Assembly (NCBI RefSeq): GCF_030758315.1
Contig: NZ_CP132336.1
Span: 2,571,001 to 2,635,000 of the forward strand
Reading direction: 5' to 3'
DNA length: 64,000 nt
Source: Pararhizobium sp. IMCC3301
Lineage (GTDB): Bacteria; Pseudomonadota; Alphaproteobacteria; Rhizobiales; GCA-2746425
Positions 23,715 through 41,588 of the stretch are shown here, one piece after another. Positions within the stretch are counted from its first letter, which is position 1; each line of letters opens with the position of its first letter. Under the pieces are notes generated by a model. The model was given only the letters and a program-made list of their open reading frames with translations, was not told where the DNA came from and did not search any database. The position numbers were made by a program, and so were the translations under genes.

Positions 23715-24200
23715 ATGGACAAGATCAGCACCCATCTATGGTTCGACGGCGAGGCAGAGCAAGCCGCGGACTTTTACACCGGCCTGTTTCCCGACAGCCA
23801 TATCGCCAGCATCACCTATGCACCGACCGATTATCCCAGTGGCAAGGCTGGCGATGTTCTGCAAATTGCCTTCACCCTTGGGGGGCGCAGTTTTCTCGCG
23901 TTGAACGGTGGCCCCAGCTTTCCCTTCACCGAAGCCATTTCGCTATCGATTGATTGCAGGGACCAAGAGGAAGTCGATCGCTATTGGGAAGCACTTTCAG
24001 CGCATCCGGAAAATGAACAATGCGGTTGGGTGAAGGATCGGTTCGGCCTCTCGTGGCAGATCATTCCGCGCGCGCTGCCGGAGTTGTTGGCCGATCCGGA
24101 CAGGGCGAAAGCCAAACGCGCCATGGATGCCATGATGACAATGAAGAAAATCAATATCGCGGTACTTCAAGCGGCAGCGAAGGCTGAAACTACGTCGTAG
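23715..24200 (+). CDS. VOC family protein (PhnB / 3-demethylubiquinone methyltransferase-like fold)
   Basis: 161 residues with the PhnB pattern ISTHLWFDGEAEQAADFYTG, LQIAFTLGGRSFLALNGGP, FGLSWQIIPRALPELL, and a C-terminal helix with MDAMMTMKKIN. These are small dimeric metal-fold proteins; the old methyltransferase name is not supported by chemistry. AGGAGA precedes the ATG. Third gene of the TetR-VOC-VOC set; convergent with an SRPBCC gene. Confidence 0.9.
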   Translation: MDKISTHLWFDGEAEQAADFYTGLFPDSHIASITYAPTDYPSGKAGDVLQIAFTLGGRSFLALNGGPSFPFTEAISLSIDCRDQEEVDRYWEALSAHPENEQCGWVKDRFGLSWQIIPRALPELLADPDRAKAKRAMDAMMTMKKINIAVLQAAAKAETTS

Positions 24201-24288
24201 CAGCTCTTGCAGACCTATCCCCGGTGTCGGCCAGCACGGGCCTGCCCCGACTTGGTTGGCTGTCACCGGGTGCCAGGGAAAAGCGCGA

Positions 24289-24717
24289 TCACCCCGCATG
24301 TACCGAGCTTCGCAGCGCGGCCATATGCTTGTCCCAGCCATCATCAAGCGCCATCAGCAGGTTTAGCGCCGCATCGCCGCTTGCCTCGGCAATGCCGTCA
24401 TGGCTGAGATGCAGGCGGGTTCCGCCTGCCGCCTCTTCCAGCAGCCATGTGACAGTCGTCGAATTGGACCCGAAAGGGCCGATGACAAAACTCGTTACCA
24501 GTTTTGACGGGGCTTCCATGACCAGAACCGCACCGCTGACCTTCGTCACTTGTGTGCCATCCTCGTCAAGTGCATAGAGGCAGTAATCTTCGCCGGGAGC
24601 CAGATCCGCCATTGCCGGATAATACCATTCGCCAAGCTTGTCCTTATTGGTCAGATACGACCAGACAGTCTGTTTGGTGGCGTTGAAAAAGGCAGTCTTG
24701 GTGATGCTGGTTGTCAT
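24289..24717 (-). CDS. SRPBCC (AHSA1-like) domain protein (second ArsR-SRPBCC pair)
   Basis: 142 residues. N-terminal pattern ITKTAFFNATKQTVWSYLTNKDKLGEWY, middle LVTSFVIGPFG, and C-terminal LLMALDDGWDKHMAALRSSV. It is the downstream partner of an ArsR gene, overlapping it by 4 bp (ATGA). It differs clearly from the 20.8-kb SRPBCC protein, so the two pairs are not a recent duplication. Confidence 0.9.
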   Translation of the reverse strand: MTTSITKTAFFNATKQTVWSYLTNKDKLGEWYYPAMADLAPGEDYCLYALDEDGTQVTKVSGAVLVMEAPSKLVTSFVIGPFGSNSTTVTWLLEEAAGGTRLHLSHDGIAEASGDAALNLLMALDDGWDKHMAALRSSVHAG

Positions 24718-25103
24718 GTTGCAGTCTTTCTCTTGCTGGATTTAGGGGGATGCAGGTCTGCATCATCCGGGTTGTCGTGTTCGATGGCTTTGTGCAGCGC
24801 CGACAGGCGCTCATCCCAGAAGCGGTCAAAATAGTTCAACCAGTCGGACGCCCGTTTCAGGGCGAGCGGCTCCAGCCGGTTGATGCGTTGCCGGCCACGG
24901 GGCTGAACCGAGATCAGCCGGCCTTCCTGCAAAATGGTGAGGTGTTTCTTGACCGCCGCGCGGGTGATTTCGAAGCGGTCGGCCACGTCCCCGATAGTCA
25001 TGTCATCTTCGCTCAGCAGCAGCAGAATCTCGCGCCGCGTCGGATCGGCAAGGGCGCGAAACGCCCCTTGAACAGCATGATCGTTCAGGTGCTGCGCGAT
25101 CAT
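24714..25103 (-). CDS. ArsR-family transcriptional regulator (second ArsR-SRPBCC pair)
   Basis: About 129 residues: FRALADPTRREILLLLSEDDMTIGD, the helix-turn-helix FEITRAAVKKHLTILQEGRLI and the wing VQPRGRQRINRLEP. No metal-binding CxC. I start at ATG 25103; a GTG at 25121 is also in frame. The ATG overlaps the stop of a 54-codon frame upstream, which suggests coupling. Two operator-like repeats lie farther upstream at 25280-25319. Confidence 0.9.
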   Translation of the reverse strand: MIAQHLNDHAVQGAFRALADPTRREILLLLSEDDMTIGDVADRFEITRAAVKKHLTILQEGRLISVQPRGRQRINRLEPLALKRASDWLNYFDRFWDERLSALHKAIEHDNPDDADLHPPKSSKRKTAT

Positions 25104-25264
25104 CGTGAAAGCGCCGCCCACGCCGGCAGATAAACGGGATACCCGTTTTGAAAAGGGAGCCGGATGTCGGTTTCTTTGAAATTACGCCTCCTGACACGGG
25201 CAATATCACCGGCTGTGTTGCAAAACCTGCCGGTCGATAATTTGTCTGATGCAGAATTGGCCAT
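25100..25264 (-). CDS. Possible 54-residue leader protein coupled to the ArsR gene
   Basis: An open frame from ATG 25264 whose TGA overlaps the ArsR ATG (ATGA). It fills the space between the operator-like repeats and the regulator. The product begins MANSASDKLSTGRFC, is basic in the middle (ARVRRRNF), and resembles nothing I recognise. A GGAA about 8 bp before the ATG could serve as a weak ribosome-binding site. It may be a real small gene or only untranslated leader. Confidence 0.35.
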   Translation of the reverse strand: MANSASDKLSTGRFCNTAGDIARVRRRNFKETDIRLPFQNGYPVYLPAWAALSR

Positions 25265-25279
25265 GACGGGTTCCATATA

Positions 25280-25319
25280 ATACCAAAAGGTATCACTTAT
25301 ATATGATACCAAACAGTAT
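25280..25319. promoter_or_regulatory. Tandem operator-like repeats upstream of the second ArsR gene
   Basis: Two near-identical palindromic sites: ATACCAAAAGGTAT (25280-25293) and ATACCAAACAGTAT (25306-25319), with starts 26 bp apart (about 2.5 helix turns). Such paired A/T-rich dyads are typical ArsR binding sites. They lie in a promoter-like region, about 180 bp from the ArsR start, between it and the divergent complex I-like cluster. Confidence 0.6.
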
Positions 25320-25469
25320 TATGTCAACCTTTTTTGTCGGATGGAATCCCGAAGCACTCCCGGATGGTCCGGTCGGATTGCGCGCATTGCGCCATCCGCC
25401 AGGTCTCGAACGCCTATCGGTTCGGTTTACAGGTGCGATGATCCGATTTTGGACTATTTGAAGTAACTC

Positions 25470-25499
25470 TTGCCGCCTTCTTGCGTCTAAGACTATGAT
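25470..25499 (+). promoter_or_regulatory. Candidate sigma-70 promoter of the complex I-like operon
   Basis: TTGCCG (25470-25475), 18-bp spacer, TATGAT (25494-25499), about 85 bp before the first gene of the operon. The match is by eye only. The rest of 25320-25583 shows no gene. Confidence 0.3.
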
Positions 25500-25583
25500 T
25501 CTGACATATCATTGTGATTGTTCTACTCCTGTGCCATCGCGACAACGTCGTGGAACGAATCCTCCAATAAGGGTCCTGATCAG

Positions 25584-25976
25584 ATGAACGCCCTTGCCCA
25601 ATACGCCATTTTATTCGGACTGACGCTTGGGACGGTCGGTCTTGTCTTCATCCTTTACGGTCTGGCGCGTGCCATTGGAGGCGGCAGCGACACGGCCGGT
25701 ATGACCGATGCCGCCATGGATGAGCTTGGCAAGGACGTCCCGGCCAGTGCCGGCACATTGTCGCGCGATCCGGTCTGGGTCCGTTATCACGCCAAATATT
25801 ATGGCTACGCCCTGCTGTTTCTCGCCTTCGATATGGAGATGGCCTTCATGTATCCCTGGTCCGTGGTTTACCGCGAGGAGGGGTTGGTGGCGCTGCTTGA
25901 TATGGGCGTGTTTCTGGCGATTCTGTTTCTGGGCCTGCTCTATGGCTGGAGCCAGGGCGCGTTGAGGCGGCAATGA
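25584..25976 (+). CDS. Complex I subunit A-like protein (NuoA homologue)
   Basis: 130 residues with three membrane helices (about 7-30, 70-92, 98-120). The second helix carries LLFLAFDMEMAFMYPWSVV, the NuoA hallmark with its acidic pair (FDxExAF). The loop between TM1 and TM2 normally has a YECG motif with a quinone-site cysteine; here it reads VPASAGT, with no Cys. First gene of an eight-gene overlapping cluster; its stop overlaps the next start by 4 bp. In complex I, NuoA sits where the peripheral arm meets the membrane arm. Confidence 0.88.
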   Translation: MNALAQYAILFGLTLGTVGLVFILYGLARAIGGGSDTAGMTDAAMDELGKDVPASAGTLSRDPVWVRYHAKYYGYALLFLAFDMEMAFMYPWSVVYREEGLVALLDMGVFLAILFLGLLYGWSQGALRRQ

Positions 25977-27874
25977 TGATTGGCGCGCGCCCGGGCACAA
26001 TGAGCGGTCTGCGCCGGATTATCGCCGCAGCGATGGCGCGCGACTTGTGCGCCTTTGTAGTGCCGGGACTGGATGTCGCGCGGGCGCACGGGCTCAATCT
26101 CGTAGCAGTGGGGCTGCATCTCGCTGCCACGCCACGCCACGCCAATGTGCTGCTGATTGTCGGGAAGCTGCCTCCGGGCCTCGCTGAAGCGGCTTCTGTC
26201 GCTTATGCCCAAATGCCGCGGCCGCGTGCAATCCTCGCATTGGGGGCGAGGGATATTGCGCCCTTGCCCGTAGCCGATGCCATCGGGGACCTGTCGCAGG
26301 CCGGGCTTGCCGCGGCTCTGGCCGATCTGCGCGCGGTCTTTGCCAGCGGTGCCTTCGCGCCCAGGGTGACGCAGTTCGAAGCGCCGGTGTTGCAAATCCG
26401 CATTGAATATACCTGTCCGATGCACCCCGAGGTGGTTAGCGACGAGCCCGGTTCCTGCCCGATTTGCGGCATGACGCTGGTGCCCGGAGAAACATCAGCA
26501 AGTGCCCATGCCGGTCACGCTGGTCATGGCAATCACGCCGGTCCTGCGAAAGAGGCCGCGATGCCGGCTCATGCGCCGGCCATGCCTTCCGCCAGCCACG
26601 ACCACAGCAAACACGCAGCTGCGCCGGCGCAATACACTTGCCCGATGCATCCCGAAGTACTCAGCGACGAACCTGGTTCCTGCCCGAAATGCGGCATGAC
26701 ACTGGTGCCGGTCGAAGACACGAAGAGCGGGGAAAGCGGCCACAGCGCTCACGGTGGACATGCCAGTCACGGAGATGGCAGTCACGGCGGACAGGATCAC
26801 AGCATGCACGGTGGTCATAGTGGTCATGGCGGCGGTGAAACCATCGCAGGAATCGAGCCGCATTTCATGTCGATGGTCGGTCTGACCCGCGATATGCCGG
26901 CCAGCCCCGATGGTTTGCGGATGGACTGGATTGACGTGCCGTTCGGGCCATTCTTCCCGGGTCTGCCAGCGGGCCTCGATCTGAACCTGACACTGGATGG
27001 CGATACCGTCGTTAAAACTCGGGTGCGAAGTCTGCTCAATGCCGGGCCAGCCCTTGCCGATAGGGCCATTCCGAACGATCTTTGCGACCGTCTGGCAGCA
27101 CTGGTGCCGCTTGCACCTGTCGCCATGCGGGAACTGGCTTGCCGCGCGCTGGAGAGCGCAGCGGACGCGCAGGAGGCGCCCGATGCAGCTGTTGCCCGTG
27201 CCGCTGCAGTCGAGCGCGAGCGGATCGTCAGCCATCTTGGCTGGCTGGCGGGTTTTGCTGGCCAAACCGGGATGGTCTGGCTGGAACGCCGTGCCGCAGC
27301 ACTGCAGCTGGTGCTGCGCGCATCGCCCGTCGATGAAATCGCCCGGCGCGCCGGATCGGTTCGGGCGCTTATGAGCCGGGTCAGGGCAACGCCGCTGATG
27401 AAGGCAAAACTTGCCGGTATCGGCCTGCTCGATAATGATGCTTCGGTGGGCGGTCCGGTTGGCCGCGCTTCCGGCAGGCAGGAGGATGCCCGTGCGCGCG
27501 ATCCTGTCTATACCGCTCTGGGCTTTGCGATTGTCACCCAAACCGGCGGTGATGCGCTTGCCCGGCTGCACCAGCGCTGTGATGAGATCGCCCAGAGCCA
27601 GGACTTGATCGCGAGCGCCGGTGCGATAGCATTTCCCGCTTCCTCCTACATCGGCAAAATATCCGGTGAGGGCAGGGCAGAAATCGAGACGCCGCGCGGC
27701 CCGGCACAACTTGAACTGTCGCTGGAAAACGGTCGCATCGCCAGCGCCCGGCTGACCACACCCTTTGCCGCACAGATCGATCTGATCGACGGGCTCACAG
27801 CGCAGACCGAACTGGCCGACGCGCTGACCGCGATCGGCTCGCTGGATCTTGATCCGTGGGAGGTACAGGCGTGA
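25973..27874 (+). CDS. Fusion of NuoB-like domain, two heavy-metal-binding domains and NuoD-like domain
   Basis: A 633-residue fusion. Residues about 1-140 follow NuoB (the stretch starting HANVLLIVGKLP, then QMPRPRAILALGARD), but the CC and GSC cysteines that hold cluster N2 in NuoB are absent. Residues 146-171 and 221-246 are two heavy-metal-binding domains (YTCPMHPE, then CPICGM or CPKCGM), each followed by His/Gly-rich linkers (GHAGHGNH; GHSAHGGHASHGDGSHGG). From about residue 300 the pattern is that of NuoD / hydrogenase large subunits: FGPFFPGLPAGL, where NuoD has GPQHPSTHG, and RERIVSHLGWLAGFAGQTGM. The quinone-site His is gone. Overlaps the NuoH-like gene (GTGA). Likely a metal-binding, redox-altered peripheral arm; function unknown. 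Confidence 0.85.
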   Translation: MMIGARPGTMSGLRRIIAAAMARDLCAFVVPGLDVARAHGLNLVAVGLHLAATPRHANVLLIVGKLPPGLAEAASVAYAQMPRPRAILALGARDIAPLPVADAIGDLSQAGLAAALADLRAVFASGAFAPRVTQFEAPVLQIRIEYTCPMHPEVVSDEPGSCPICGMTLVPGETSASAHAGHAGHGNHAGPAKEAAMPAHAPAMPSASHDHSKHAAAPAQYTCPMHPEVLSDEPGSCPKCGMTLVPVEDTKSGESGHSAHGGHASHGDGSHGGQDHSMHGGHSGHGGGETIAGIEPHFMSMVGLTRDMPASPDGLRMDWIDVPFGPFFPGLPAGLDLNLTLDGDTVVKTRVRSLLNAGPALADRAIPNDLCDRLAALVPLAPVAMRELACRALESAADAQEAPDAAVARAAAVERERIVSHLGWLAGFAGQTGMVWLERRAAALQLVLRASPVDEIARRAGSVRALMSRVRATPLMKAKLAGIGLLDNDASVGGPVGRASGRQEDARARDPVYTALGFAIVTQTGGDALARLHQRCDEIAQSQDLIASAGAIAFPASSYIGKISGEGRAEIETPRGPAQLELSLENGRIASARLTTPFAAQIDLIDGLTAQTELADALTAIGSLDLDPWEVQA

Positions 27875-28770
27875 GCGTTGCAATGCCGCTTCTAGCGCTG
27901 GCCCTTGGAGCTTATGGTCTCGCCGTGCTGGAGGGTTGGGTCGTGCATGGCCGGTTGAGCCTGGGTCGCCCGGCAATTGCAGCGCTGGCTTTGCTGGGGC
28001 GCGAATCGGTGCTGGCGCGCACTTCGGACCGCCTGTTCTTCGAAGCCGGGCCCGTGCTTCTGCTGGTCGCCGGACTGCTGGCTGTGTCGGTAATTCCCCT
28101 GGCACCGGCTCTGATCATCACCGATCTGGCCAATGGTGCTCTGTTTTTGAATGCCGCATTGGCCTATGTGCTGGTGGCGCTCATCATGGCCGGATGGGGG
28201 CCGAATGGCGCTTACGCCATGATTGGCGGCTGGCGTTTTCTCGGGCAATTCATTGCCTATGCGATGCTCATCGTGATGCCGATTACGGCGGTGGCAATGC
28301 GCGCGGAATCGCTCTCCACTATTGTCATCGTCACCTCGCAGGAGGGGTTGTGGAACATCCTCTACCAGCCGATCGGTTTCGTGCTGTTTATCGTTGCTGC
28401 AATGGGGCTGGCCTGGCTGCCGCCGCTTGATCTGCCAACTGCGCCGGGTGATCTGGCCGGTGGCATTGAGGCGGAATATACCGGAGCGCGGCTGGCTGTG
28501 CTGCGGCTGGCGCGGATGGTCATTATTCTGGCGCTCGCCGGAGCCACTGTAACTTTCTATCTGGGCGGCTGGCTTGGTCCCTGGCTGCCGGCCTGGGCCT
28601 GGAGCGCCATCAAGATTCTGGCCGTTGCTGCAGCGATGCTGATCTTCGGACGCTTTGTGCCACGGGTTCGCGAGGCGCGTTATCTGGCGGTCAGCTGGAA
28701 ATTGGGCATCTCGCTGGCGCTCGCCAATATATTTCTTGTCGGCGTCATCGCGCTGCTGGTGCCGCTATGA
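27871..28770 (+). CDS. Complex I subunit H-like membrane protein (NuoH homologue)
   Basis: 299 residues with about eight membrane helices. Family landmarks are RTSDRLFFEAGPVLLLVAGLL, the GWGPNGAYAMIGGWRFLGQ segment and PPLDLPTAPGDLAGGIEAEYTG. Compared with usual NuoH, the N-terminal RGPNRVG loop is missing. Glutamates normally found in SYE and AExNRxPFDLPEAE are replaced (AYAM; GLAWLPPLDLPTAP), which removes part of the acidic channel that links quinone chemistry to pumping. The GTG at 27871 overlaps the previous stop (GTGA). A related fold also occurs in membrane hydrogenases (HycD). Confidence 0.85.
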   Translation: MSVAMPLLALALGAYGLAVLEGWVVHGRLSLGRPAIAALALLGRESVLARTSDRLFFEAGPVLLLVAGLLAVSVIPLAPALIITDLANGALFLNAALAYVLVALIMAGWGPNGAYAMIGGWRFLGQFIAYAMLIVMPITAVAMRAESLSTIVIVTSQEGLWNILYQPIGFVLFIVAAMGLAWLPPLDLPTAPGDLAGGIEAEYTGARLAVLRLARMVIILALAGATVTFYLGGWLGPWLPAWAWSAIKILAVAAAMLIFGRFVPRVREARYLAVSWKLGISLALANIFLVGVIALLVPL

Positions 28771-29291
28771 CCGGCATAAATGCGCAGATGATTTTCCTCG
28801 CCTTCTTTGGCGTGGCGGCAGTGTGGTTCGGCGTTGGTGTTTTCCGCACCCATTCAATGGTGCGCTCCGCCCTTGCATTGCTGTTCTCGCAAACCGCTGT
28901 CGGCCTGATGTTTCTCGTCATGCAGGCGGAGTTTCTCGGCATCCTGCAGATCATGATGATGGCCACCGAAATGAGTGTGATGGCGATCTTCATGGTGATG
29001 TTCATGATGGACCCGGGCGGTATGGGAGCCATGGACATGACCCACCAGAAGCGCCTCTCGCTCTGGGTCGGCGGCGTCGCACTGGTGGCCGCGCTTTTGG
29101 TGTCATTGCTGGCCGACTGGGGCCCGCCCGCAACGGATATCCCTGAAGCCGCACAGCAGACCGCAGATCTGGGGCGGGAACTGCTCGGCCGGTCAATGCT
29201 GATATTCCAGTCGGCGGGGCTGACAATCCTGACCGCGATGGTCGCCGCGACGATGGTCGCGATTGTGCCGAACAAGGAGCCAGGCAAGTGA
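28767..29291 (+). CDS. Complex I subunit J-like membrane protein (NuoJ homologue), Met-rich
   Basis: 174 residues with five membrane helices. FRTHSMVRSALALLFSQTAVG and MQAEFLGILQI follow NuoJ, but the TM3 motif YaGAvmVLF is replaced by MMMATEMSVMAIF. Residues 63-95 hold about 13 methionines and end in DPGGMGAMDMTHQK. ATGA overlaps both sides show tight translational coupling. In complex I, TM3 of NuoJ undergoes a helix change during turnover; loss of its motif fits a different coupling mode. Confidence 0.85.
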   Translation: MTGINAQMIFLAFFGVAAVWFGVGVFRTHSMVRSALALLFSQTAVGLMFLVMQAEFLGILQIMMMATEMSVMAIFMVMFMMDPGGMGAMDMTHQKRLSLWVGGVALVAALLVSLLADWGPPATDIPEAAQQTADLGRELLGRSMLIFQSAGLTILTAMVAATMVAIVPNKEPGK

Positions 29292-29599
29292 TTATTGAGC
29301 TGATAATCGCGCTCAGCGTCGGCGCGGGAATGTTTGGCGTCGGGCTTTATGGCGCACTCAGCCAGACCAATCTTGTGATGATCATCATGGGGGTCGAACT
29401 GATCCTGGCTGCCGCGCTTGTCAATCTGGTTGCCTTCTGGCGCTATCTTCACCCCGATGAGCCGGCTGCGCAGATGTTCGTGCTGATTGTCATGGCAGTG
29501 ATGGCGGTCGAGATGACGGTCGGTTTTGGCATTGCCATCGCACGGTTCCGCTCACGCGGATCGCTGGAAATGGAAGAAGCCCGCGAGTTGAGGGGATGA
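29288..29599 (+). CDS. Complex I subunit K-like membrane protein (NuoK homologue)
   Basis: 103 residues with three membrane helices. Both acidic residues of the NuoK proton path are kept: the Glu in MIIMGVELILAAALVNLVAF (TM2) and the Glu in VMAVMAVEMTVGFGIAIA (TM3). The GTG start overlaps the nuoJ-like stop (GTGA). It resembles MrpC of cation/proton antiporters as well. Intact, in contrast to the B, D and H homologues. Confidence 0.9.
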   Translation: MIIELIIALSVGAGMFGVGLYGALSQTNLVMIIMGVELILAAALVNLVAFWRYLHPDEPAAQMFVLIVMAVMAVEMTVGFGIAIARFRSRGSLEMEEARELRG

Positions 29600-31491
29600 T
29601 GATGCTGGCACTCACCCTGCTTGCGCCGCTGCTGGCAGCTCTCGCCATTCTTCTCGTGCGCCGCGCGCCCGGCCCTGTTGCACTCAGTGGCGCAGCGCTG
29701 AGTTTGGCAGGTGCGCTCGGCCTGCTCTACGGTATCTCAGGCATCGACGCCGTCGAAGCAGTCTTGCCCGGCCTTCCCGGCATGCCGCTGCGGCTGACCG
29801 CCACGCCATTGACGGTGGTGCTCTCGCTGCTGGTCGCAACCGTGGCCGCTTTCGTTCTGATCTATGCTGTCGGCTATATGCGCAACGATCCGCAGCGTGT
29901 GCGGTTTTTTGGCACGATGCTGTTGTTTGTCACCGCAATGCAGGCGCTGGTGCTGTCAGGTGACTGGATCACCTTGCTGGCGGCATGGGAGATGATCGGT
30001 TTTGCCAGCTATCTGCTGATCGGATTCTGGCATGACCGACCAGATGTAGCCAGCTCCGCCACACGGGCTTTTCTGTACACTCGCAGTGCCGATCTGGGGC
30101 TCTATATCGGCGTCTTTTTGCTCATTGGCACCGCTGGCAGCAGCGAGATTTCGCTGACCCTCTTGACCACCGGTACGCCTGCACTGATTGCCGGTTTGTT
30201 GCTGCTGCTGGCCGCGATGGGCAAGTCGGCCCAGGTGCCGTTGCAGAACTGGCTGCAACGCGCCATGGCCGGCCCCACTCCGGTCTCGGCCCTGCTGCAC
30301 TCGGCGACGCTGGTGGCGGCCGGGGCAATCCTGTTGATCCGCACCGCGCCGATGCTGCCCGGCGGCGCACTGCTGGCAGTCGGTATCGTTGGCGGTGTCA
30401 CCGCCGTCGTGACTGGATTGATAGCCCTGGCGGAGCGTGATCTGAAGCGCCTGCTCGCCGCCTCTACGTCAAGCCAGTATGGTCTGATGCTGGTCGCGAT
30501 CGGCGCTGGAGCACCGGTCGCGGCGCTGTTGCATCTGATCGCCCATGCCGCCATCAAGAGTGCGCTGTTCCTTGGCGCCGGTGTGTTCCAGCATGACCGC
30601 GGCGACACAGACCTTGATGGTCTGGCCGGTGCGGGCCGGGCGCGGCCGGCAATCTATACCGGCTTTGCCATTGCGGCACTGGCTCTGGTCGGCATTCCGC
30701 CACTGGCCGGGTTCTTTTCCAAGGATGCTATCATTGCCTCCGCGCTCGCCGGCTCCTCGGTGGTCTGGCTGGCACCGCTGGCACTGGCCGGAACGCTGCT
30801 GACCGGCGCCTATATGGGCCGGGCGCTAAGCGTGCTGTGGCGCGGTGCTGCCGGACCGGCGCGCGAGCGCATTCCCGAAATGGCGCTGGGCTTTGCTGTG
30901 CTGGTGGCGCTGGCTGTGGTGCTGGGCGCTGTGTTCGGTCCGCTCGAACGGCTGCTTGACGCTGGCATGGCCGAAGTTGGACTGATTGTGCCGGCGCTTG
31001 GGCTGGGGGCTAGTCTGAGTGGCCTTCTGCTGGGCTGGTTCGTCGCGCCGCGCCGGCTGCTCGGTGCGTTGTTCAACCCGGCCCGGGGCGGCTTTACCAT
31101 AGCCGGCGGCATGGACCGGCTGGTCCTGCGCCCGGCTCTGGCTATCGCCGCCGACTGCGAGCGGCTGGAACAGCTTATCTATCGCTCAGTGCTGGCGTTC
31201 GGCCTGCGTCCGGCTCTGGCAATCGCCGCGGCCTGCGAGCGGTTGGAACAGTTTCTCTATCGCTTAGTGCTGGCGTTCGGACGGATCAATTTGTTGTTCG
31301 GCGGCTTGGTCCGGCGCGCCGATGCGGAGGCTATTGACGCGCTGATCTTCGGGCTGGTGCGGCGCATCATCGCCAGCGGCAACCGCGCCCGCCGCCTGCA
31401 AAGCGGTCTGATCCACCGCGAGCTTGCCATTACAGTCGTCGGCATCGCACTGATTGCGGTGGTGCTGCTCGCCGCACCGTTTTATTCCTGA
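29596..31491 (+). CDS. Complex I antiporter-like subunit L (NuoL homologue)
   Basis: 631 residues. The 14-helix antiporter core keeps the main charged residues: Glu in AAWEMIGFASYLLIGFW, Lys in MGKSAQVPLQNWLQRAM, His in GPTPVSALLHSATLVAAG, Lys in HAAIKSALFLGAG and Lys in GFFSKDAI. A lateral helix region and a last membrane segment (ELAITVVGIALIAVVLLAA) follow. The C-terminal lateral region contains a 26-residue tandem repeat (31129-31284). Three ATGs in a row start the gene; the first overlaps the previous stop. Proton or cation translocation is the likely role. Confidence 0.93.
   Translation: MMMLALTLLAPLLAALAILLVRRAPGPVALSGAALSLAGALGLLYGISGIDAVEAVLPGLPGMPLRLTATPLTVVLSLLVATVAAFVLIYAVGYMRNDPQRVRFFGTMLLFVTAMQALVLSGDWITLLAAWEMIGFASYLLIGFWHDRPDVASSATRAFLYTRSADLGLYIGVFLLIGTAGSSEISLTLLTTGTPALIAGLLLLLAAMGKSAQVPLQNWLQRAMAGPTPVSALLHSATLVAAGAILLIRTAPMLPGGALLAVGIVGGVTAVVTGLIALAERDLKRLLAASTSSQYGLMLVAIGAGAPVAALLHLIAHAAIKSALFLGAGVFQHDRGDTDLDGLAGAGRARPAIYTGFAIAALALVGIPPLAGFFSKDAIIASALAGSSVVWLAPLALAGTLLTGAYMGRALSVLWRGAAGPARERIPEMALGFAVLVALAVVLGAVFGPLERLLDAGMAEVGLIVPALGLGASLSGLLLGWFVAPRRLLGALFNPARGGFTIAGGMDRLVLRPALAIAADCERLEQLIYRSVLAFGLRPALAIAAACERLEQFLYRLVLAFGRINLLFGGLVRRADAEAIDALIFGLVRRIIASGNRARRLQSGLIHRELAITVVGIALIAVVLLAAPFYS
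31129..31284 (+). repeat. Two tandem 78-bp units in the NuoL-like gene
   Basis: Units 31129-31206 and 31207-31284 encode RPALAIAADCERLEQLIYRS(...)GL and RPALAIAAACERLEQFLYRL(...)GR. The two are closely similar in DNA and protein, so this is an in-frame duplication of one amphipathic helix in the lateral-helix region. Confidence 0.93.
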
Positions 31492-31504
31492 GGAGACCCG
31501 TCCC

Positions 31505-32968
31505 ATGTTGCCACTCCTGACCCTCGCAACCTTCCTGCCGATTGCCGGTGGCCTTGTCCTGATGGCGCTGCCGGACCGCTCGGCGCGCATGGCGCATGGC
31601 GTCTCTATCGTGGTCAGCGGCCTGACCTTTCTGGTCACCCTTGTCATCTGGTGGCGCGGCGTTCAACCTGGCGGCTTTGCCCAGATTGAAGAAATGGCCT
31701 GGATTCCGGCCATCGGCGCGGCCTACCGGCTGGGCGTGGATGGGCTCAGTCTGCCACTGGTACTGCTGACCTCGTTGCTGTTTTTCCTCTCGGCAATCTA
31801 TTCGGCACGGGTGAGCGAGCGCGCCTCCACCTATGTGGTGGTGTTGCTGATGCTGGAAACCGCTTCGCTCGGCACATTCATGGCGCTGGACGGGCTGCTG
31901 TTCTACGTGTTTTTCGAAGTTTCGCTTGTGGGCATGTATTTCATGATAGCCGGGTGGGGCCATGAGGATCGCCAGCGCGCGGCGCTGATGTTCTTTCTCT
32001 ATACGCTTTTGGGCAGCCTGCCGCTGCTGCTGGCGATCCTCGGACTTTATCTCGGCAGCGGCAGCTTCGACATGCGCGTCTGGATCGACGCGCCGCCGCT
32101 GCAGGGGTTGGCCGCAATGCTGGCGCTGATTGCGATGCTCATCACATTTGCCATCAAGATTCCGGCCTTTCCGGTGCATACCTGGCTACCGGCCGCCCAT
32201 GTGCAGGCCCCCACGGCAGGCAGCGTCATCCTCGCCGGGGTGATGCTGAAATTCGGCACTTATGGACTGATCCGCTTCGCGCTTCAGATGACGCCGGAAG
32301 CCTTTATCCAGGCCGGCCAGTTCATTCTGGCCTTCGGGGTAATCAGCGCGCTCTACGGCGCGTTCGCGGCGCTGGCCCAGAATGATTTGAAGAGAATGAT
32401 TGCCTACACGTCAATCAACCATATGGGTTATGTGGTGATGGGTGTGGCTGTCGCGGCGCTGACGCTCGACCCCGCCATTCGCATTGTGGCGCTTGATGGC
32501 GCGACTTTGCAGATGGTCAGCCACGGCCTGGTCACCGGCGCGCTGTTCTTCCTGGTCGGCATGTTGCAGGATCGTGCCCACAGCCGCGAGATGGCGGATT
32601 TCGGCGGGTTGTTGGGCAGTGTTCCGTGGCTCGGATGGGCCTTTATCCTCTCCGCTTTCGCCTCGCTCGGCCTGCCCGGGTTGGCGCATTTCCCGGCCGA
32701 ATTCCAGATTTTCCTGGCAACGCTGAACGCCACCCCCTGGGCAATCATCGCGATCCTTGCCATCGTCGTCACGGCGGGGCTGTATCTGCGCGCCATTGCC
32801 AGAGTCTTTCTCGGCGCGGCGAACGAAAAATGGCAAGCGATGCCCGATCTCGACCGGCGCGAGAAACTGGCTATTGTGCCGCTTCTGGTCCTGACAATCC
32901 TGATTGGCGTGGCACCAGCCTGGCTGATTGACCTGATCCATACCACCATGGCGAGCCTTGCTTTCTGA
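31505..32968 (+). CDS. Complex I antiporter-like subunit M (NuoM homologue)
   Basis: 487 residues with about 14 membrane helices. Key motifs are FFEVSLVGMYFMIAGWG (Glu), FAIKIPAFPVHTWLPAAHVQ (Lys), APTAGSVILAGVMLKFGTYGL (Lys) and AYTSINHMGYVVMGVAV. All charged residues expected for a proton half-channel appear present. GAGGAG about 10 bp upstream supports ATG 31505; this is the only gene in the cluster with a small gap (13 bp) before it. The next start overlaps its stop. Confidence 0.94.
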   Translation: MLPLLTLATFLPIAGGLVLMALPDRSARMAHGVSIVVSGLTFLVTLVIWWRGVQPGGFAQIEEMAWIPAIGAAYRLGVDGLSLPLVLLTSLLFFLSAIYSARVSERASTYVVVLLMLETASLGTFMALDGLLFYVFFEVSLVGMYFMIAGWGHEDRQRAALMFFLYTLLGSLPLLLAILGLYLGSGSFDMRVWIDAPPLQGLAAMLALIAMLITFAIKIPAFPVHTWLPAAHVQAPTAGSVILAGVMLKFGTYGLIRFALQMTPEAFIQAGQFILAFGVISALYGAFAALAQNDLKRMIAYTSINHMGYVVMGVAVAALTLDPAIRIVALDGATLQMVSHGLVTGALFFLVGMLQDRAHSREMADFGGLLGSVPWLGWAFILSAFASLGLPGLAHFPAEFQIFLATLNATPWAIIAILAIVVTAGLYLRAIARVFLGAANEKWQAMPDLDRREKLAIVPLLVLTILIGVAPAWLIDLIHTTMASLAF

Positions 32969-34332
32969 TGGCCCACGACCTCTCCTTTCTGATCCCGGAG
33001 ATGACGCTGGCCGTGACGGTCGTCTTCATGCTGCTCGCCGAGATGGCGCGCATGCCGCGGTTGGCGCTGGGCTTCGGGCTGGCCGGTCTGGCACTGGCGG
33101 TGGCGGCGACATTTCCGGTTCTCGACGCCGCAAACACGGTCTTCGGCGGCACCTACCGGATCGATTTGCTGAGTGGCTGGGCCAAGCTGATTCTGCTGCC
33201 GGGCACGGCACTGGCGCTGCTGCTGGCGCGGGCGGAACTGGCCGGCAAGGACCGTGAGGGCAGCGTCTATTCCCTGCTCTGCCTTGTCACACTCGGTGCG
33301 CTGATGCTGGCGGGCGGCGACGACATGATGCTGCTGGTGCTTGGCGTTGTGCTGACCGGGCTGGGGTCCTTTGCGCTGGTGGCCTATCCGCGCAATGATG
33401 CAGCGACCGAAGCGGGAATGAAATATCTGGTTTTCGGCGCGGTCACCGGGTCGGTGATGATCTACGGACTGACCTTCTGGTTCGGCGGCGCCGGAACCAC
33501 CTTGTTTTCCGGCCTCGGCGTGCTGGGCGAACGGCCCCTCATCGCCATTGCAGGGCTGCTCGCAGTGATTGTCGGACTGGGCTACAAAGCCGCGCTGGTG
33601 CCGTTTCATTTCTGGGCACCTGACGCTTATGACGGAGCGCCGGTTTGCGTCGCGGCCTATCTGTCGGTCATTACCAAAGTGGCGGCGTTGTTCGCCTTTG
33701 TCCGGGTGCTGGGCGAACTGCCGCCCGCCACCGGCTGGCCTCTGGTGATCGCCCTGATTGCGGCGGCGACCATGACCTATGGCTATCTTGCAGCTCTGGT
33801 GCAGACCAATCTGGTGCGGCTGATCGCCTATTCCTCGGTCGCCCAATCGGGGTATTTCCTGCTTGGCATCGCGGCGCTCGGGGTCAGTCCGCTGGCCGTG
33901 CCGGGCGTCATTGTCTTTGGGGCTGCCTATGTGGCGATGAATCTCGGTGCTTTTGCTATCGTCATGGTGGCCGGGCGAAATCTCGATGACATGCGCGGCT
34001 TTGGCCGCCGCGCCCCTTTTGCCGGTGTTGCGATGGTGATCTTCCTGTTGTCACTAACCGGTATTCCGCCGCTGTTCGGCTTTGTCGGCAAGGTCTATCT
34101 GTTCGGCGCTGCAATTGAAGCCGGCTTTCTCTGGCTGGCAGTGATCGGCATTCTCAACACGGTGCTTGCGCTTGGGGTCTATCTGCGCATTGTCGTGCCG
34201 ATGTATCACACAGCGGATAACGGCAGCACGGCCACCGCCCCGCCCGGATTGCCACTGCTGACATTCGTCTGGGCTGTGGCGGCGCTCGTCACCCTGTTTA
34301 TGGGACTGTTTGCCAGCGTCCTGCCGGGTTGA
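32968..34332 (+). CDS. Complex I antiporter-like subunit N (NuoN homologue)
   Basis: 454 residues with about 13-14 membrane helices. Landmarks are TEAGMKYLVFGAVTGSVMIYG (Glu, Lys), LGYKAALVPFHFWAPDAYDGAPVCVAAYLSVITK (Lys in TM7 and TM8) and LIAYSSVAQSGYFLLG. The end matches NuoN (LSLTGIPPLFGFVGKVYLF). Start overlaps the nuoM-like stop by one base (TGATG). Last gene of the cluster; genes for C, E, F, G and I are absent, and 261 bp without a gene follow. Confidence 0.94.
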   Translation: MAHDLSFLIPEMTLAVTVVFMLLAEMARMPRLALGFGLAGLALAVAATFPVLDAANTVFGGTYRIDLLSGWAKLILLPGTALALLLARAELAGKDREGSVYSLLCLVTLGALMLAGGDDMMLLVLGVVLTGLGSFALVAYPRNDAATEAGMKYLVFGAVTGSVMIYGLTFWFGGAGTTLFSGLGVLGERPLIAIAGLLAVIVGLGYKAALVPFHFWAPDAYDGAPVCVAAYLSVITKVAALFAFVRVLGELPPATGWPLVIALIAAATMTYGYLAALVQTNLVRLIAYSSVAQSGYFLLGIAALGVSPLAVPGVIVFGAAYVAMNLGAFAIVMVAGRNLDDMRGFGRRAPFAGVAMVIFLLSLTGIPPLFGFVGKVYLFGAAIEAGFLWLAVIGILNTVLALGVYLRIVVPMYHTADNGSTATAPPGLPLLTFVWAVAALVTLFMGLFASVLPG

Positions 34333-34593
34333 AAGCTGACACGAAGTGACTGGGTTGGCCTGTCCCCCGATTTCATCGGATCTATTGTGAAGTGACCGCA
34401 CGGCAGGCTGCCATTTTTCGGAAACGCGCCGATTTCTGCGGCTTCACAGTAGGTATTCCACTTTACCGATAATTTACGATATTCCCAACTTGTCACATCG
34501 CGCGCAATGACCTTTAGGGAATAGGAAATTTTGAGCGGTAGGGTAACGCTGGCAACAAAAGACAATCGTGCCTTTGTGCACAGGGGATATTTG

Positions 34594-36759
34594 ATGAACC
34601 GGAAACTGACCAGAAGAATTACAGTGCTTCTGTTCGGCGCAGTCGCCGTAACGATTTTTACCATCAGCGCGGTACTGGTCTGGATGTCAGGAGAATTTAA
34701 CCAGAAATCCCTCCAGGATTCCCGGGTCATGATGAATGGTGGCCTGGAAGCCATCGACGATACATTACGTCTCGTCACCGTAGATTATTCCTGGTGGCAG
34801 GATGCCTATGACAATATCCGTGCAGATGATGCCGGTTGGCTAGTGTCTAACATCGGTTCCGGCGTGACCGATTCTTCTGCGCTCGATCTTGTTGTTCTGT
34901 CCCCCGCCGATGGACCGCCCAAATATGGCTGGATCAAAGGCCAGGAACAGGATGGACCGCAAGCGGATCTGCTGACGCCGGTACAGATACAACAGATGCG
35001 CGACTTGCTCATCGATGCGCCGACAGATGAAGTTGTGGCCCGGACACAGTTTGTCAAGATCGGCGATAAGATGTTTCTGCTGGCCGCAGCTTATATAACG
35101 TCCGACGATCTGGAAGGTCTCGATTTCGACACGCTGACCGTCAATATTTCCGGCTTCATGCTCGACGAGGAGCGCATTGCGGCATTGGGCGCAACGTTTC
35201 TGACAGATGACCTTGAACTGTCCGATACGCAAGATCCGGGTAAGGAGCATATCGAACTGGTTGGGGCAGAAGGCGAAATCCTGGGGCATCTGACATGGAC
35301 CGCGCCAACTCCAGGTGACGAATTACTGCAAAAAAGTCTGCTTCCTCTCTCCGCGGCCCTCCTTTCTTTCGCCGGTATCGGGCTTCTCGTCGCCTTTGGT
35401 GCCCGTAAATTTGCTGAAGAGCTCGGCCGCAAGGAAGCTGAATCTTTCGAAAACGCCCGAACCGACAGCATGACAAAGCTGCCCAACCGGTTTCACTTTG
35501 TCGAACGACTAAGCGAACCGACAACACGTCGGGCTTGCGCCAGCGGCCAACTCGCCATTATTTTTCTGGATGTCGATGGCTTCAAGAATGTCAATGACAC
35601 GATTGGTCATGCTGGCGGGGATGATCTCATCTGTCAGGTCGCCGACCGCTTGGCAGCGGCGCTTCCGAAAAACGGCTTTCTCGCCCGCGTTGGCGGAGAC
35701 GAATTCAATATTCTGGTAACTGGAGATGACATTATCTCCTCGGTGGAGAACACCGCGAAAAAATGCTTTTCCGAAATCCAGCGGGATTTCCTTGTAAAAG
35801 GACGCATCTTCCGCGTCTCTGTATCAATCGGCTATGCCATCGCGAAACATCAGACCACCAGCTGCGAAGAACTGGTCCGCCAGGCGGATGTGGCGATGTA
35901 TCAGGCCAAGGCCAGGAAAGCTGGCGAACCGATTATCTATCGCGAAGAATATGAATCATCCCTGTTCAAGAACCGCAAGATTGATCAGGCCCTGCGCGCG
36001 GCACTGACTGCCGGTGAAATTAAAGTCCATTATCAGCCGATCGTGCATTCCCAAACCGGCCAGATGGAATTGGCGGAAGCCCTGGTTTACTGGAATTCCA
36101 CGGAGTTCGGGCGGATGTCGCCTGAATCCTTCATTCCTGTGGCCGAAGAATCCGGCCTGATCAGCATTCTGGGAACCTATGTGTTCCGCCGGGTCTGTGA
36201 GGATATGGTCGGACGGCCGGATCTCAAGGTCAGTGTCAATCTGTCGCCGGTTCAACTGCTCGATCCGATGCTGACAGAGGATCTGCTGGCCATCGCGCAA
36301 GAGACCGGTATCGAAACACACCGCATCGAGCTTGAATTGACCGAACGCATTGTTGTCAGCCACCCGGGACTGGCCAGGGAAAAACTCAATGCCCTGAAAT
36401 CCGCCGGATTTGGAATTGTGCTGGATGATTTCGGTACCGGATTCTCATCAATCGGCTATCTGCGCCAATTGCCGTTTGACAAGCTGAAAATCGACCAGAG
36501 TTTTGTCATGGGTGTTGAACAGAATGTGGAAGCGCTTAACCTGATGGAATCCATTGCCAGCCTTGGCCGTGCCCTTGATCTGACGGTGGTTGCCGAAGGC
36601 GTGGAAACTGCCGAACAGGCCAACCTTGCCCACCTGGCAGGATGCAATCAAATTCAGGGGTTTCTGTTCAGCGGGCCGCTTCCAATTGAAGAGCTGACAA
36701 GATGGCTTCGGCCACCGGGCCAAAAAGTACAAAAAATTGCCCGTCTGCTGCGCGCCTGA
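34594..36759 (+). CDS. Membrane c-di-GMP enzyme: CHASE4 - GGDEF - EAL
   Basis: 721 residues. TM1 is near residues 9-30, then a CHASE4-like periplasmic sensor (the YSWWQDAYDNI motif near residue 65), TM2 near 245-270, a GGDEF domain with an intact RVGGDEFNIL (near 366), and an EAL domain with AEAL, ELTERI, DDFGTGFSS, KIDQSFV and TVVAEGVET. Both active sites look complete, so the protein may both make and break c-di-GMP, switching by signal. ATG 34594 has AGGGGA 7 bp upstream; the upstream frame is open but lacks a good start. Monocistronic. Confidence 0.95.
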   Translation: MNRKLTRRITVLLFGAVAVTIFTISAVLVWMSGEFNQKSLQDSRVMMNGGLEAIDDTLRLVTVDYSWWQDAYDNIRADDAGWLVSNIGSGVTDSSALDLVVLSPADGPPKYGWIKGQEQDGPQADLLTPVQIQQMRDLLIDAPTDEVVARTQFVKIGDKMFLLAAAYITSDDLEGLDFDTLTVNISGFMLDEERIAALGATFLTDDLELSDTQDPGKEHIELVGAEGEILGHLTWTAPTPGDELLQKSLLPLSAALLSFAGIGLLVAFGARKFAEELGRKEAESFENARTDSMTKLPNRFHFVERLSEPTTRRACASGQLAIIFLDVDGFKNVNDTIGHAGGDDLICQVADRLAAALPKNGFLARVGGDEFNILVTGDDIISSVENTAKKCFSEIQRDFLVKGRIFRVSVSIGYAIAKHQTTSCEELVRQADVAMYQAKARKAGEPIIYREEYESSLFKNRKIDQALRAALTAGEIKVHYQPIVHSQTGQMELAEALVYWNSTEFGRMSPESFIPVAEESGLISILGTYVFRRVCEDMVGRPDLKVSVNLSPVQLLDPMLTEDLLAIAQETGIETHRIELELTERIVVSHPGLAREKLNALKSAGFGIVLDDFGTGFSSIGYLRQLPFDKLKIDQSFVMGVEQNVEALNLMESIASLGRALDLTVVAEGVETAEQANLAHLAGCNQIQGFLFSGPLPIEELTRWLRPPGQKVQKIARLLRA

Positions 36760-41041: not shown

Positions 41042-41081
41042 TGCGCTAACTCTTTGGTCAATAATGAAAATTTATAACGTG

Positions 41082-41381
41082 TCACTGTGTTTTACCGGCA
41101 GCAGGTTTTGAGAGCAGTATTTTATCAACCCGAAACGTCAGGGGTAATTGCTGACACGTTGAACGCGCAACAAAAGTTCCAGAGAAATCAAAATCTTTTC
41201 CAATCGGTGCATCTGCTGGCCTGATCCCCATCAGGGAAACTGTTTTCCCGTCCTGGGTTTTGAGTATTGGACAGGTAATGCCGCCCGGCACCACCATTCC
41301 GGATAGAATGGTGGCTTCAGACGTGATGCCGGGTTGCGGTACCAGCAGTGACAGCAATAAGGCGCTCGATCTGATAAGCAT
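41082..41381 (-). CDS. Small secreted protein upstream of the RTX protease
   Basis: About 99 residues with a signal peptide (MLIRSSALLLSLLVPQPG) and a small beta-rich domain. Pattern: GMVVPGGITCPILKTQDGKTVSLMG, then a strand region with a second Cys (STCQQ), probably a disulfide; it resembles small OB-like domains of the DUF5818 type. Same strand as and 40 bp before the protease gene, so likely co-transcribed. The position suggests a chaperone or inhibitor of the protease, but this is inference. I start at ATG 41381 (GGGAG upstream) rather than GTG 41402. Confidence 0.65.
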   Translation of the reverse strand: MLIRSSALLLSLLVPQPGITSEATILSGMVVPGGITCPILKTQDGKTVSLMGIRPADAPIGKDFDFSGTFVARSTCQQLPLTFRVDKILLSKPAAGKTQ

Positions 41382-41392
41382 TGTTCTCCCGC

Positions 41393-41440
41393 AGTGTTTC
41401 ACGTCCCCAGTGTTTCACGTCCCCAGTGTTTCACGTCCCC
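41393..41440. repeat. Three tandem copies of a 16-bp unit in the protease/secretion intergenic region
   Basis: AGTGTTTCACGTCCCC at 41393-41408, 41409-41424 and 41425-41440, identical. It lies just upstream of the small secreted-protein gene, between that operon and the divergent type I secretion operon, so it sits in the shared promoter zone. Confidence 0.95.
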
Positions 41441-41588
41441 AGTCGGTCCGGAGCCGACTCAGGACGGAAATTTCTAGCGCAAACCAATACATAAATTATT
41501 AATATCTATTCTAGCATGTTAAACAAAGTTTCGGAATGCGACCTTAAACTGCACTTTGCATTCGGACACGGGGCTGAAAAGGCCGGAA

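Follow-up and report, generated by a model that had tools for sequence, protein, structure and literature searches.

Eight genes at positions 25584-34332 of a 64,000-nucleotide stretch of contig NZ_CP132336.1 of Pararhizobium sp. IMCC3301 (the whole stretch is called the window below) encode a relative of respiratory complex I (NDH-1, Nuo). Judged from its gene content and alignments, this cluster forms, by descent, a new branch within the complex I superfamily. The ligands of the N2 cluster, the quinone residues of NuoD and an arginine motif of NuoH are lost, and therefore the known electron and quinone roles are gone, whereas the antiporter-like subunits L, M and N are retained under selection, which suggests that proton flow is important. 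Taken with the invariant methionines of subunits J, K, A and H, a peripheral arm rich in histidine, heavy-metal-binding domains (HMBD) or methionine, and a metal-related gene neighbourhood, found across four phyla, this is best fitted by a proton-coupled transporter of Cu(I) or another soft metal. Our reading, to which we give a little less than an even chance, is that a complex I scaffold may here serve a non-redox purpose, as a transporter of soft metal, most probably Cu(I) or Ag(I), that is coupled to protons.

The genes lie in the order A, B/D fusion, H, J, K, L, M, N and overlap or abut, as found from open reading frames and Pfam/NCBIfam profiles, and none of the open reading frames at positions 24000-36500 was recognised as a C, E, F, G or I gene. 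This confirms the gene set proposed in an initial annotation and corrects its count: the fusion and the membrane arm are present, as seven membrane-subunit genes plus one fusion gene (eight in total) rather than eight plus a fusion. The 4.58-Mb genome also has a normal nuo operon at about 122-137 kb, which was named from its position and its matches to B, D, H, J, K, L, M and N, and therefore the window cluster is an additional system. It looks acquired, because its G+C content is 63.0% compared to 57.5% for the window and no match to the cluster was found in the four same-genus genomes of our sample.

Redox and quinone sites of the fusion protein

The B-like part of the fusion was aligned to E. 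coli NuoB, and a cysteine was found in 0/52 fusions at each of the four N2 positions (C63, C64, C129 and C158 of E. coli NuoB); which residue occupies these positions varies with the alignment. Of the same 52 B-like parts, 28 have no cysteine, 21 have one and 3 have two, and cysteine outside the linker is absent in 6/51 fusions. In the D-like part, the GPQHPSTHG quinone motif of NuoD is replaced by GPFFPGLPAG, the residue corresponding to H224 of NuoCD is proline in 51/51, and that corresponding to Y273 is proline in 49/51 and a gap in 2. We take H224 and Y273, together with R37...R46 of NuoH, to form the quinone site; the NuoH segment bearing these arginines is ten residues shorter in the family, and both arginines fall in gaps in 63/63. 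No CxxC was found in the D-like part of 53 fusions, which hence lacks NiFe ligand pairs. Fusions L107 and L066 and those not in one open frame were dropped, and L051, which the pattern missed, was omitted from the linker and D-part residue counts. The absence of N2 cysteines and of the quinone motif had been noted in the initial annotation and was borne out in both cases, and judged by its sequence the arm is redox-dead.

The solved chains nearest to the D-like and B-like parts by profile were MbhL (1.7e-22, then NdhH at 3e-20) and MbhJ (2.5e-7) of structure 6cfw. The Complex1_49kDa profile matched fusion residues 470-549 (9.4e-14), and the Oxidored_q6 match was weak (0.0038, under its cut-off). 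An AlphaFold2 model of the fusion (predicted local distance difference test, pLDDT, 80; predicted template modelling score, pTM, 0.73) was compared with solved structures by Foldseek, which gave NuoD-type chains with target TM-scores of 0.53-0.76 among the 50 matches listed. Those of the 50 that could be named were NuoD/49-kDa or hydrogenase-large-subunit chains, and none nameable as NuoB was seen among them, so the B fold rests on sequence profiles.

The linker, taken from residue 140 (135 or 150 in two fusions) to FMSM, is the variable part of the protein. The window fusion has the two HMBDs (PF19335, E 2.1e-30) and His-rich linkers that were initially described, and this part of the description does not extend to the whole family: other fusions have 1-5 HMBD copies by pattern or none, with a His- and Met-rich linker in L101 and L102 and a His-rich linker in L172-L174 instead. 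The HMBD was considered as the defining feature of the family and was rejected on account of these five loci. The histidine content of the linker is 15% on average and at least 8.6% (51 fusions), and M299, M301 and M317 beside it are invariant in 45 aligned sequences.

The same losses bear on a copper-redox proton pump, in which bound copper would replace N2 and electrons from Cu(I) or thiols would drive pumping. Such a pump would suit the copper context and the retained pump subunits, but the loss of the NuoH R37/R46 motif and the replacement of NuoD H224/Y273 leave it with no known electron acceptor site, and the potentials of free Cu(II)/Cu(I) and ubiquinone are presumably close, which would give little driving force. 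We regard it as improbable. It has a precedent in the report by Eddie et al. (2021), where a Marinobacter atlanticus cassette is suggested to draw energy from copper redox reactions (PMC8233155).

The possibility that the redox arm is borrowed from normal complex I was also considered. The NuoD family, the one subunit sought, was used to search 19 carrier genomes, most of them drafts; a NuoD besides that of the cluster was found in none of the seven Alcanivorax/Alloalcanivorax genomes and in each of the other 12. Therefore, the cluster does not generally rely on normal complex I as its electron source, and the seven genomes make a borrowed arm unlikely as a rule.

Proton residues and methionines of the membrane arm

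For each membrane subunit, 44-64 family rows, including the window, were aligned together with the E. coli K-12 sequence and, except for A, the normal counterpart from the window's own genome; sequences with X or shorter than 85% of the query were dropped, hence the varying number of rows. All eight NuoL residues tested (E144, D178, K229, H254, H334, H338, K342 and K399) are kept in 44/44, and NuoM keeps E144, K234, K265, H322, H348 and E407 in 57/57. The NuoN lysines K158, K247 and K395 are kept in 57/57 and K217 in 56/57, whereas E133 is replaced by Val/Leu and H305 by Gln in 57/57. In NuoH, E157 is Ala or Ser in 63/63 and position 216 is never Glu (Asp in 16/63), with D213 kept in 63/63 and E228 in 62/63. 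NuoJ Tyr59 is Met in 63/63. NuoA keeps D79/E81 (E. coli numbering), and NuoK keeps E36, with E72 in 61/64. An intact pump with its charged residues kept, as first described, therefore holds for the tested residues of L and M but not for N E133/H305, H E157 and J Y59. As outlined in a review by Sazanov (PMC10212512), H, A, J and K surround the E-channel and the tyrosine of the third NuoJ helix is its open/closed switch.

Methionine makes up 11.1% of NuoJ in the family (n=63, minimum 9.8) compared to 3.8% in canonical NuoJ (n=30, maximum 5.9), and 9.1% of NuoK (n=64, minimum 6.8) compared to 4.5% (n=30, maximum 6.9); in L, M and N it is not raised overall (2.8, 4.0 and 3.6%). Eleven NuoJ methionines (M31, 63, 64, 65, 69, 72, 76, 81, 89, 91 and 144) occur in 63/63 family members and 0/30 canonical sequences, and H93 and a new acid, E68, are likewise invariant in the family; M78, M80 and M158 are common to family and canonical NuoJ. 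Further invariant residues are M31, M69 and M72 of NuoK (64/64, with M76 in 62/64), M137, M141 and M148 of NuoH (63/63, versus two canonical NuoH), and H69, M84, M86, M89 and M107 of NuoA, found in 59/59 and absent from E. coli NuoA, the sole canonical sequence compared. The K set and the H set, each of three residues picked post hoc, fall on a single helix face (p 0.014 and 0.005, respectively).

As aligned, the coupling core is rebuilt: H E157, J Y59 and N E133 are replaced, and new invariant methionines occur in H, A, J and K. The replaced residues and the methionines together suggest that metal is present in the membrane core as well as in the arm. This extends the initial view of a proton-translocating module with a metal-handling, redox-dead arm, which is supported in itself and placed the metal in the arm alone. 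A membrane-embedded path of Met, Cys or His would be expected of a Cu(I) transporter, and the invariant new methionines of J, K, A and H, as identified in the alignments, are candidates for such a path.

In the transporter that we propose, and provided that the subunits assemble as in complex I, copper would be collected by a B/D arm in the cytosol, through linkers rich in His, HMBD or Met, and would pass through the invariant FMSM..M segment into a site equal to the quinone cavity of complex I. The copper would then move along the methionines of NuoJ (third helix and M89-x-M91-x-H93 loop), NuoK, NuoA and NuoH, a path that would stand in for a portion of the E-channel. Protons flowing through L, M and N would drive this movement or be driven by it, and the likeliest direction would be export, within metal resistance. 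CusA, which is proton-driven, has a methionine ladder for Cu(I) (PMC7558416), and Ctr1 has an MX3M filter for Cu(I) (PMC6437178); the likeness of the cluster to them is chemical, in the methionine path, and no sequence relation is claimed. A more far-reaching version, which we find possible and distinctly short of even, is that evolution has made complex I, a proton pump driven by electrons, into a copper pump driven by protons. A methionine ladder would have replaced much of the E-channel, copper would enter at the former quinone cavity, and the arm that once carried electrons would act as a sponge for copper, in an eight-gene machine carried on plasmids and metal-resistance islands across phyla.

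The strongest rival is a metal-gated proton or cation antiporter, that is, an Mrp-like exchanger in which copper or another metal, on binding to the B/D arm, would switch the flux of H+ or Na+/K+, so that pH or membrane potential would be restored in metal stress and the metal would be a signal that does not cross the membrane. The conserved proton residues of L and M, the new acid J E68, the copper/heavy-metal context and a metal-binding linker in each fusion measured, variable in kind (1-5 HMBD or none), are all consistent with such an exchanger. It leaves unexplained why invariant methionines replace membrane core residues of J and K across four phyla, and we consider it unlikely, at perhaps one chance in a few.

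Family, selection and metal neighbourhood

The D-like part was used as the tblastn query (a full-length fusion query was swamped by HMBDs) and gave 12 plasmids with at least 80% of the query covered at one place, in Nitratireductor, Paracoccus, Sulfitobacter, Roseovarius, Thioclava and two Rubrobacter (Actinomycetota). Eight of the plasmids were opened, and the eight-gene neighbourhood was found in 8/8 (the annotated H is split in Rubrobacter marinus); no NuoE/F/G or NuoC/I was annotated in their 24-29 kb stretches, for which the gene tables are incomplete. A profile scan of genome contigs gave at least 58 loci, so that with the eight plasmids and less one repeated record (L088 is the same record as L044) there are 65 distinct loci. 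All eight genes are present in 49/65, in the same order in 49/49 and with B and D in one open frame in 46, which answers the initial question of whether they recur as a unit. The other 16 loci are incomplete: 14 are cut off within the cluster by the end of their contig, L066 has undetermined bases (N) across K and the first part of L, and in L062 such bases interrupt L, with no M or N gene found after it.

Carriers belong to four phyla, Pseudomonadota (Alpha and Gamma), Actinomycetota, Chloroflexota and Bacteroidota. At a threshold of E 1e-30, 301 Chloroflexota genomes included 2 carriers and 296 Bacteroidota genomes included 4 (counts that include the carrier serving as centre), and the three Bacteroidota loci opened (L172-L174) each have the eight genes in order. 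Within the order of the window's host, a full-length match was found in 2/297 genomes. In a J+K tree, rooted at its midpoint, 62 family members stand apart from 31 canonical sequences (30 alphaproteobacterial plus E. coli) with support of 0.90. In an H+M+N tree, near-identical clusters occur in different bacterial families (e.g., Aliihoeflea beside Sulfitobacter), a placement that indicates recent horizontal transfer of the cluster.

A crude ratio of nonsynonymous to synonymous change (dN/dS), calculated against L051, was 0.06-0.19 for all eight genes, with 0.34-0.62 synonymous differences per site. A decayed or spare nuo operon would account for the missing redox residues and for the few loci with broken or gapped frames (L062, L096, L098 and L103), but not for low dN/dS in every gene, for the constant gene order or for the new residues that are invariant across four phyla. 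This explanation was rejected, its chance being very slight; decay of a normal nuo operon, which the initial annotation had named as an outcome that would refute its view, is contradicted by these data.

Several minor features of the loci were seen. Two different cluster copies (L051 and L070) are present in one assembly, the metagenome-assembled genome of Aurantimonas coralicida isolate HyVt-316, and orphan NuoN-like fragments, perhaps remnants of second copies, lie near the cluster on the minus strand at L047:9179 and L073:4571. ISKra4-family transposases, a possible route of spread, lie downstream of N on three plasmids (L045, L046 and L048). A divergent DUF6629 gene, a possible partner, precedes the cluster at a distance of up to about 2.5 kb in L045, L050, L052, L053, L056, L057, L064, L075 and L098.

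The gene neighbourhood was evaluated by searching 27 label proteins from six plasmid loci against the flanks of all 66 loci, with thresholds of at least 60 bits, or at least 300 for P-type ATPases; the count leaves out L043, L044, L045, L048, L049 and L050, as label sources, and L088. A copper/heavy-metal label was found in 21/35 loci with at least 5 kb of total flank (P-type ATPase 14, CsoR 6, CopA-type oxidase 4, CopB 3, CopZ 3, CusA 2, CusB 2, DUF305 2, others 1 each), and in 13/35 the label was other than a P-type ATPase or CDF. In contrast, no label was found in 20 arbitrary 20-kb stretches from 14 alphaproteobacterial genomes, where one CusB-like match, at 29 bits, fell under the threshold (Fisher p 4.7e-6). 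When near-identical loci were merged at 90% NuoH identity (34 loci, L103 being omitted as having no usable NuoH), 13, or strictly 11, of 19 groups were labelled. The Bacteroidota loci lie near copper/heavy-metal genes in 3/3, two being near-copies of each other.

Among the neighbouring P-type ATPases (20 rows, L044 and L088 being one gene), CPC is present in 13, YN in 16, MxxSS in 16 and all three in 9; we take these motifs to mark a Cu(I)-type ATPase. Copper is the best-supported metal on the evidence of the neighbouring genes, in agreement with the first suggestion of copper or a similar metal. As separate observations, the P-type ATPases at L050:22549-25065 and from L075:18409 onward, in Rhodobacterales-type loci, have CPD replacing CPC/CPH, and those of L055, L057, L064 and L073 also have no CPC/CPH, with the same YN and MSGSS motifs.

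The neighbours also bear on the direction of transport. The same methionine path run inwards would make the cluster a metal importer or a supplier of copper to cuproenzymes; the path itself gives no direction, and multicopper oxidases and cupredoxins are among the neighbours. The labelled neighbours are, however, mostly of the efflux/resistance type counted above (P-type ATPase, CsoR, CopA-type oxidase and CopB), and the arm bears a large metal-binding load, so that we give import little chance, slightly less than the copper-redox pump.

A number of points weigh against the proposed copper transporter. The overall methionine content of NuoH is not enriched (3.4% versus canonical 4.9 and 4.3), and the NuoA and NuoH comparisons used one and two canonical sequences, respectively. 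A single helix face for all nine third-helix methionines of NuoJ was not supported (R 0.16, p 0.68); M65-M69-M72-M76 are spaced 4, 3, 4, as a subset chosen post hoc, and the NuoJ model, in which residues 56-81 form one helix, is weak (pLDDT 65, pTM 0.39). Acidic residues persist in the core (J E68, K E36/E72, A D79/E81, H D213/E228, and an Asp at position 216 of H in 16/63), so that a proton path may run through it. No label was found in 14/35 loci, nor in 19/24 loci with shorter flanks (5/24 labelled). The control stretches all come from chromosomes of a single class, but many of the loci are plasmid-borne or belong to other phyla, and the excess may thus be due in part to plasmids. Seven of the 20 neighbouring ATPases have no CPC, and that of L053 also lacks YN and MxxSS and looks non-Cu. 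The His-rich linkers fit Zn or Ni as well. In the window, no copper gene was found among the ten neighbour open reading frames scanned, nor by motif; the cluster is preceded by a gene for an ArsR-type regulator and followed by one for a GGDEF/EAL protein.

Known systems and features of the window

Complex I has homologous A, H, J, K, L, M and N subunits and NuoB-/NuoD-like arm parts, and E. coli NuoH is the solved chain nearest to the NuoH-like subunit (E 1.3e-37). The cluster shares the Lys/Glu/His network of L and M (44/44 and 57/57) but not all of the E-channel glutamates, nor NuoJ Tyr59, and it differs further in the absence of C/E/F/G/I beside it, of N2 ligands and of the quinone motif and residues, and in its methionine-rich J/K and metal-binding inserts. 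Mbh and other group 4 hydrogenases give the best matches to both arm parts (MbhL and MbhJ of 6cfw), whereas the D-like part has no NiFe CxxC and the cluster has A and a full L/M/N arm. Ehr complexes are hydrogenase-related and complex-I-like, with a degenerate large subunit without NiFe ligands, an Fe-S small subunit and no assigned function; to our knowledge they have no HMBD/His inserts, NuoA or copper context. Compared by description only, both systems have a degenerate large subunit, and the B-like part of the cluster is without N2-type ligands.

Mrp antiporters have antiporter-like subunits and non-redox action in common with the cluster. As far as we know, the MrpA-G gene set has no H-, A-, B- or D-like subunits, in contrast to the A, B/D and H parts of the cluster. 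The DAB2 (DabA/DabB) CO2 hydration system couples a non-redox cytosolic metal protein to a NuoL-like subunit; the cluster differs from this system, which has a single antiporter-like subunit and a carbonic-anhydrase-like partner. Since defining features of complex I, group 4 hydrogenases and Mrp that were tested are lacking, the cluster was filed under none of them.

The initial statement that no such system had been described was nearly right. In the report by Eddie et al. (2021), a Marinobacter atlanticus cassette called NuoADHJKL lies inside a copper-resistance operon, and all seven genes were higher, together with copper genes, in electrode-attached cells at 160 mV, a co-regulation that speaks for the copper reading; no M, N, fusion/HMBD anatomy or family is reported, and the conditions were electrode potentials, not added copper, which is a further point against that reading (PMC8233155). 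Locus L091 of Marinobacter orientalis has all eight genes, with P-type ATPase and CopB-like neighbours, and by analogy with it the M. atlanticus cassette probably belongs to the same family. Apart from this report, nothing among the open-access papers listed by our searches was recognised as this system.

The coupling of quinone chemistry to protons in complex I is disputed, and a natural relative that retains the antiporter subunits, but in which electrons, the quinone site and important E-channel residues are lost, allows one to ask independently what the antiporter subunits do alone and whether the scaffold can couple protons to a non-redox process. If the metal reading is true, the cluster would be a new kind of machine by function and a new class of heavy-metal transporter hidden under NADH dehydrogenase annotations, and genome surveys that take nuo genes as a sign of respiration would have to be read with care.

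Table 1. Features of the complex I-like cluster in the window.
Feature	Position	Strand	Evidence
NuoA-like subunit	25584..25976	+	Pfam PF00507, 1.4e-22
B/D fusion (NuoB-like part, metal-binding inserts, NuoD-like part)	25973..27874	+	Profiles, AlphaFold2 model, Foldseek
NuoB-like part without N2 cysteines, fusion residues 1-140	25973..26392	+	MbhJ/NuoB profile match, best E 2.5e-7
HMBD 1, CPMHPE...CPICGM	26408..26488	+	PF19335 (two stretches); motif at 26414
First His-rich linker	26489..26632	+	Sequence; linker composition
HMBD 2, CPMHPE...CPKCGM	26633..26713	+	PF19335, fusion residues 221-247; motif at 26639
Second His-rich linker	26714..26863	+	Sequence; linker composition
FMSM..xT...P.S.DGL.M motif with three invariant Met, ahead of D-like fold	26864..26929	+	M299/M301/M317 invariant
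NuoD-like part, quinone His and Tyr replaced	26930..27871	+	PF00346, 9.4e-14
NuoH-like subunit	27856..28770	+	PF00146, 1.6e-50
NuoJ-like subunit, methionine-rich (11.5% Met)	28767..29291	+	PF00499, 3.4e-21
NuoJ residues 63-81, third-helix invariant methionines	28953..29009	+	Alignment; predicted helix 56-81 (low-confidence model)
NuoK-like subunit	29288..29599	+	PF00420, 7e-19
NuoL-like antiporter subunit	29596..31491	+	PF00361, 6.3e-58
NuoM-like antiporter subunit	31505..32968	+	TIGR01972, 3.5e-146, above cut-off
NuoN-like antiporter subunit	32968..34332	+	PF00361, 7.2e-52

Two other parts of the window were noted. Divergent from the cluster, at 24289-25121, are the ArsR-type regulator, a possible regulator of the cluster, and a gene that was judged by eye to be SRPBCC/AHSA1-like. 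At 36902-44749, a 1379-residue RTX subtilase adjoins an ABC exporter and an HlyD protein, in what looks like a type I secretion unit.

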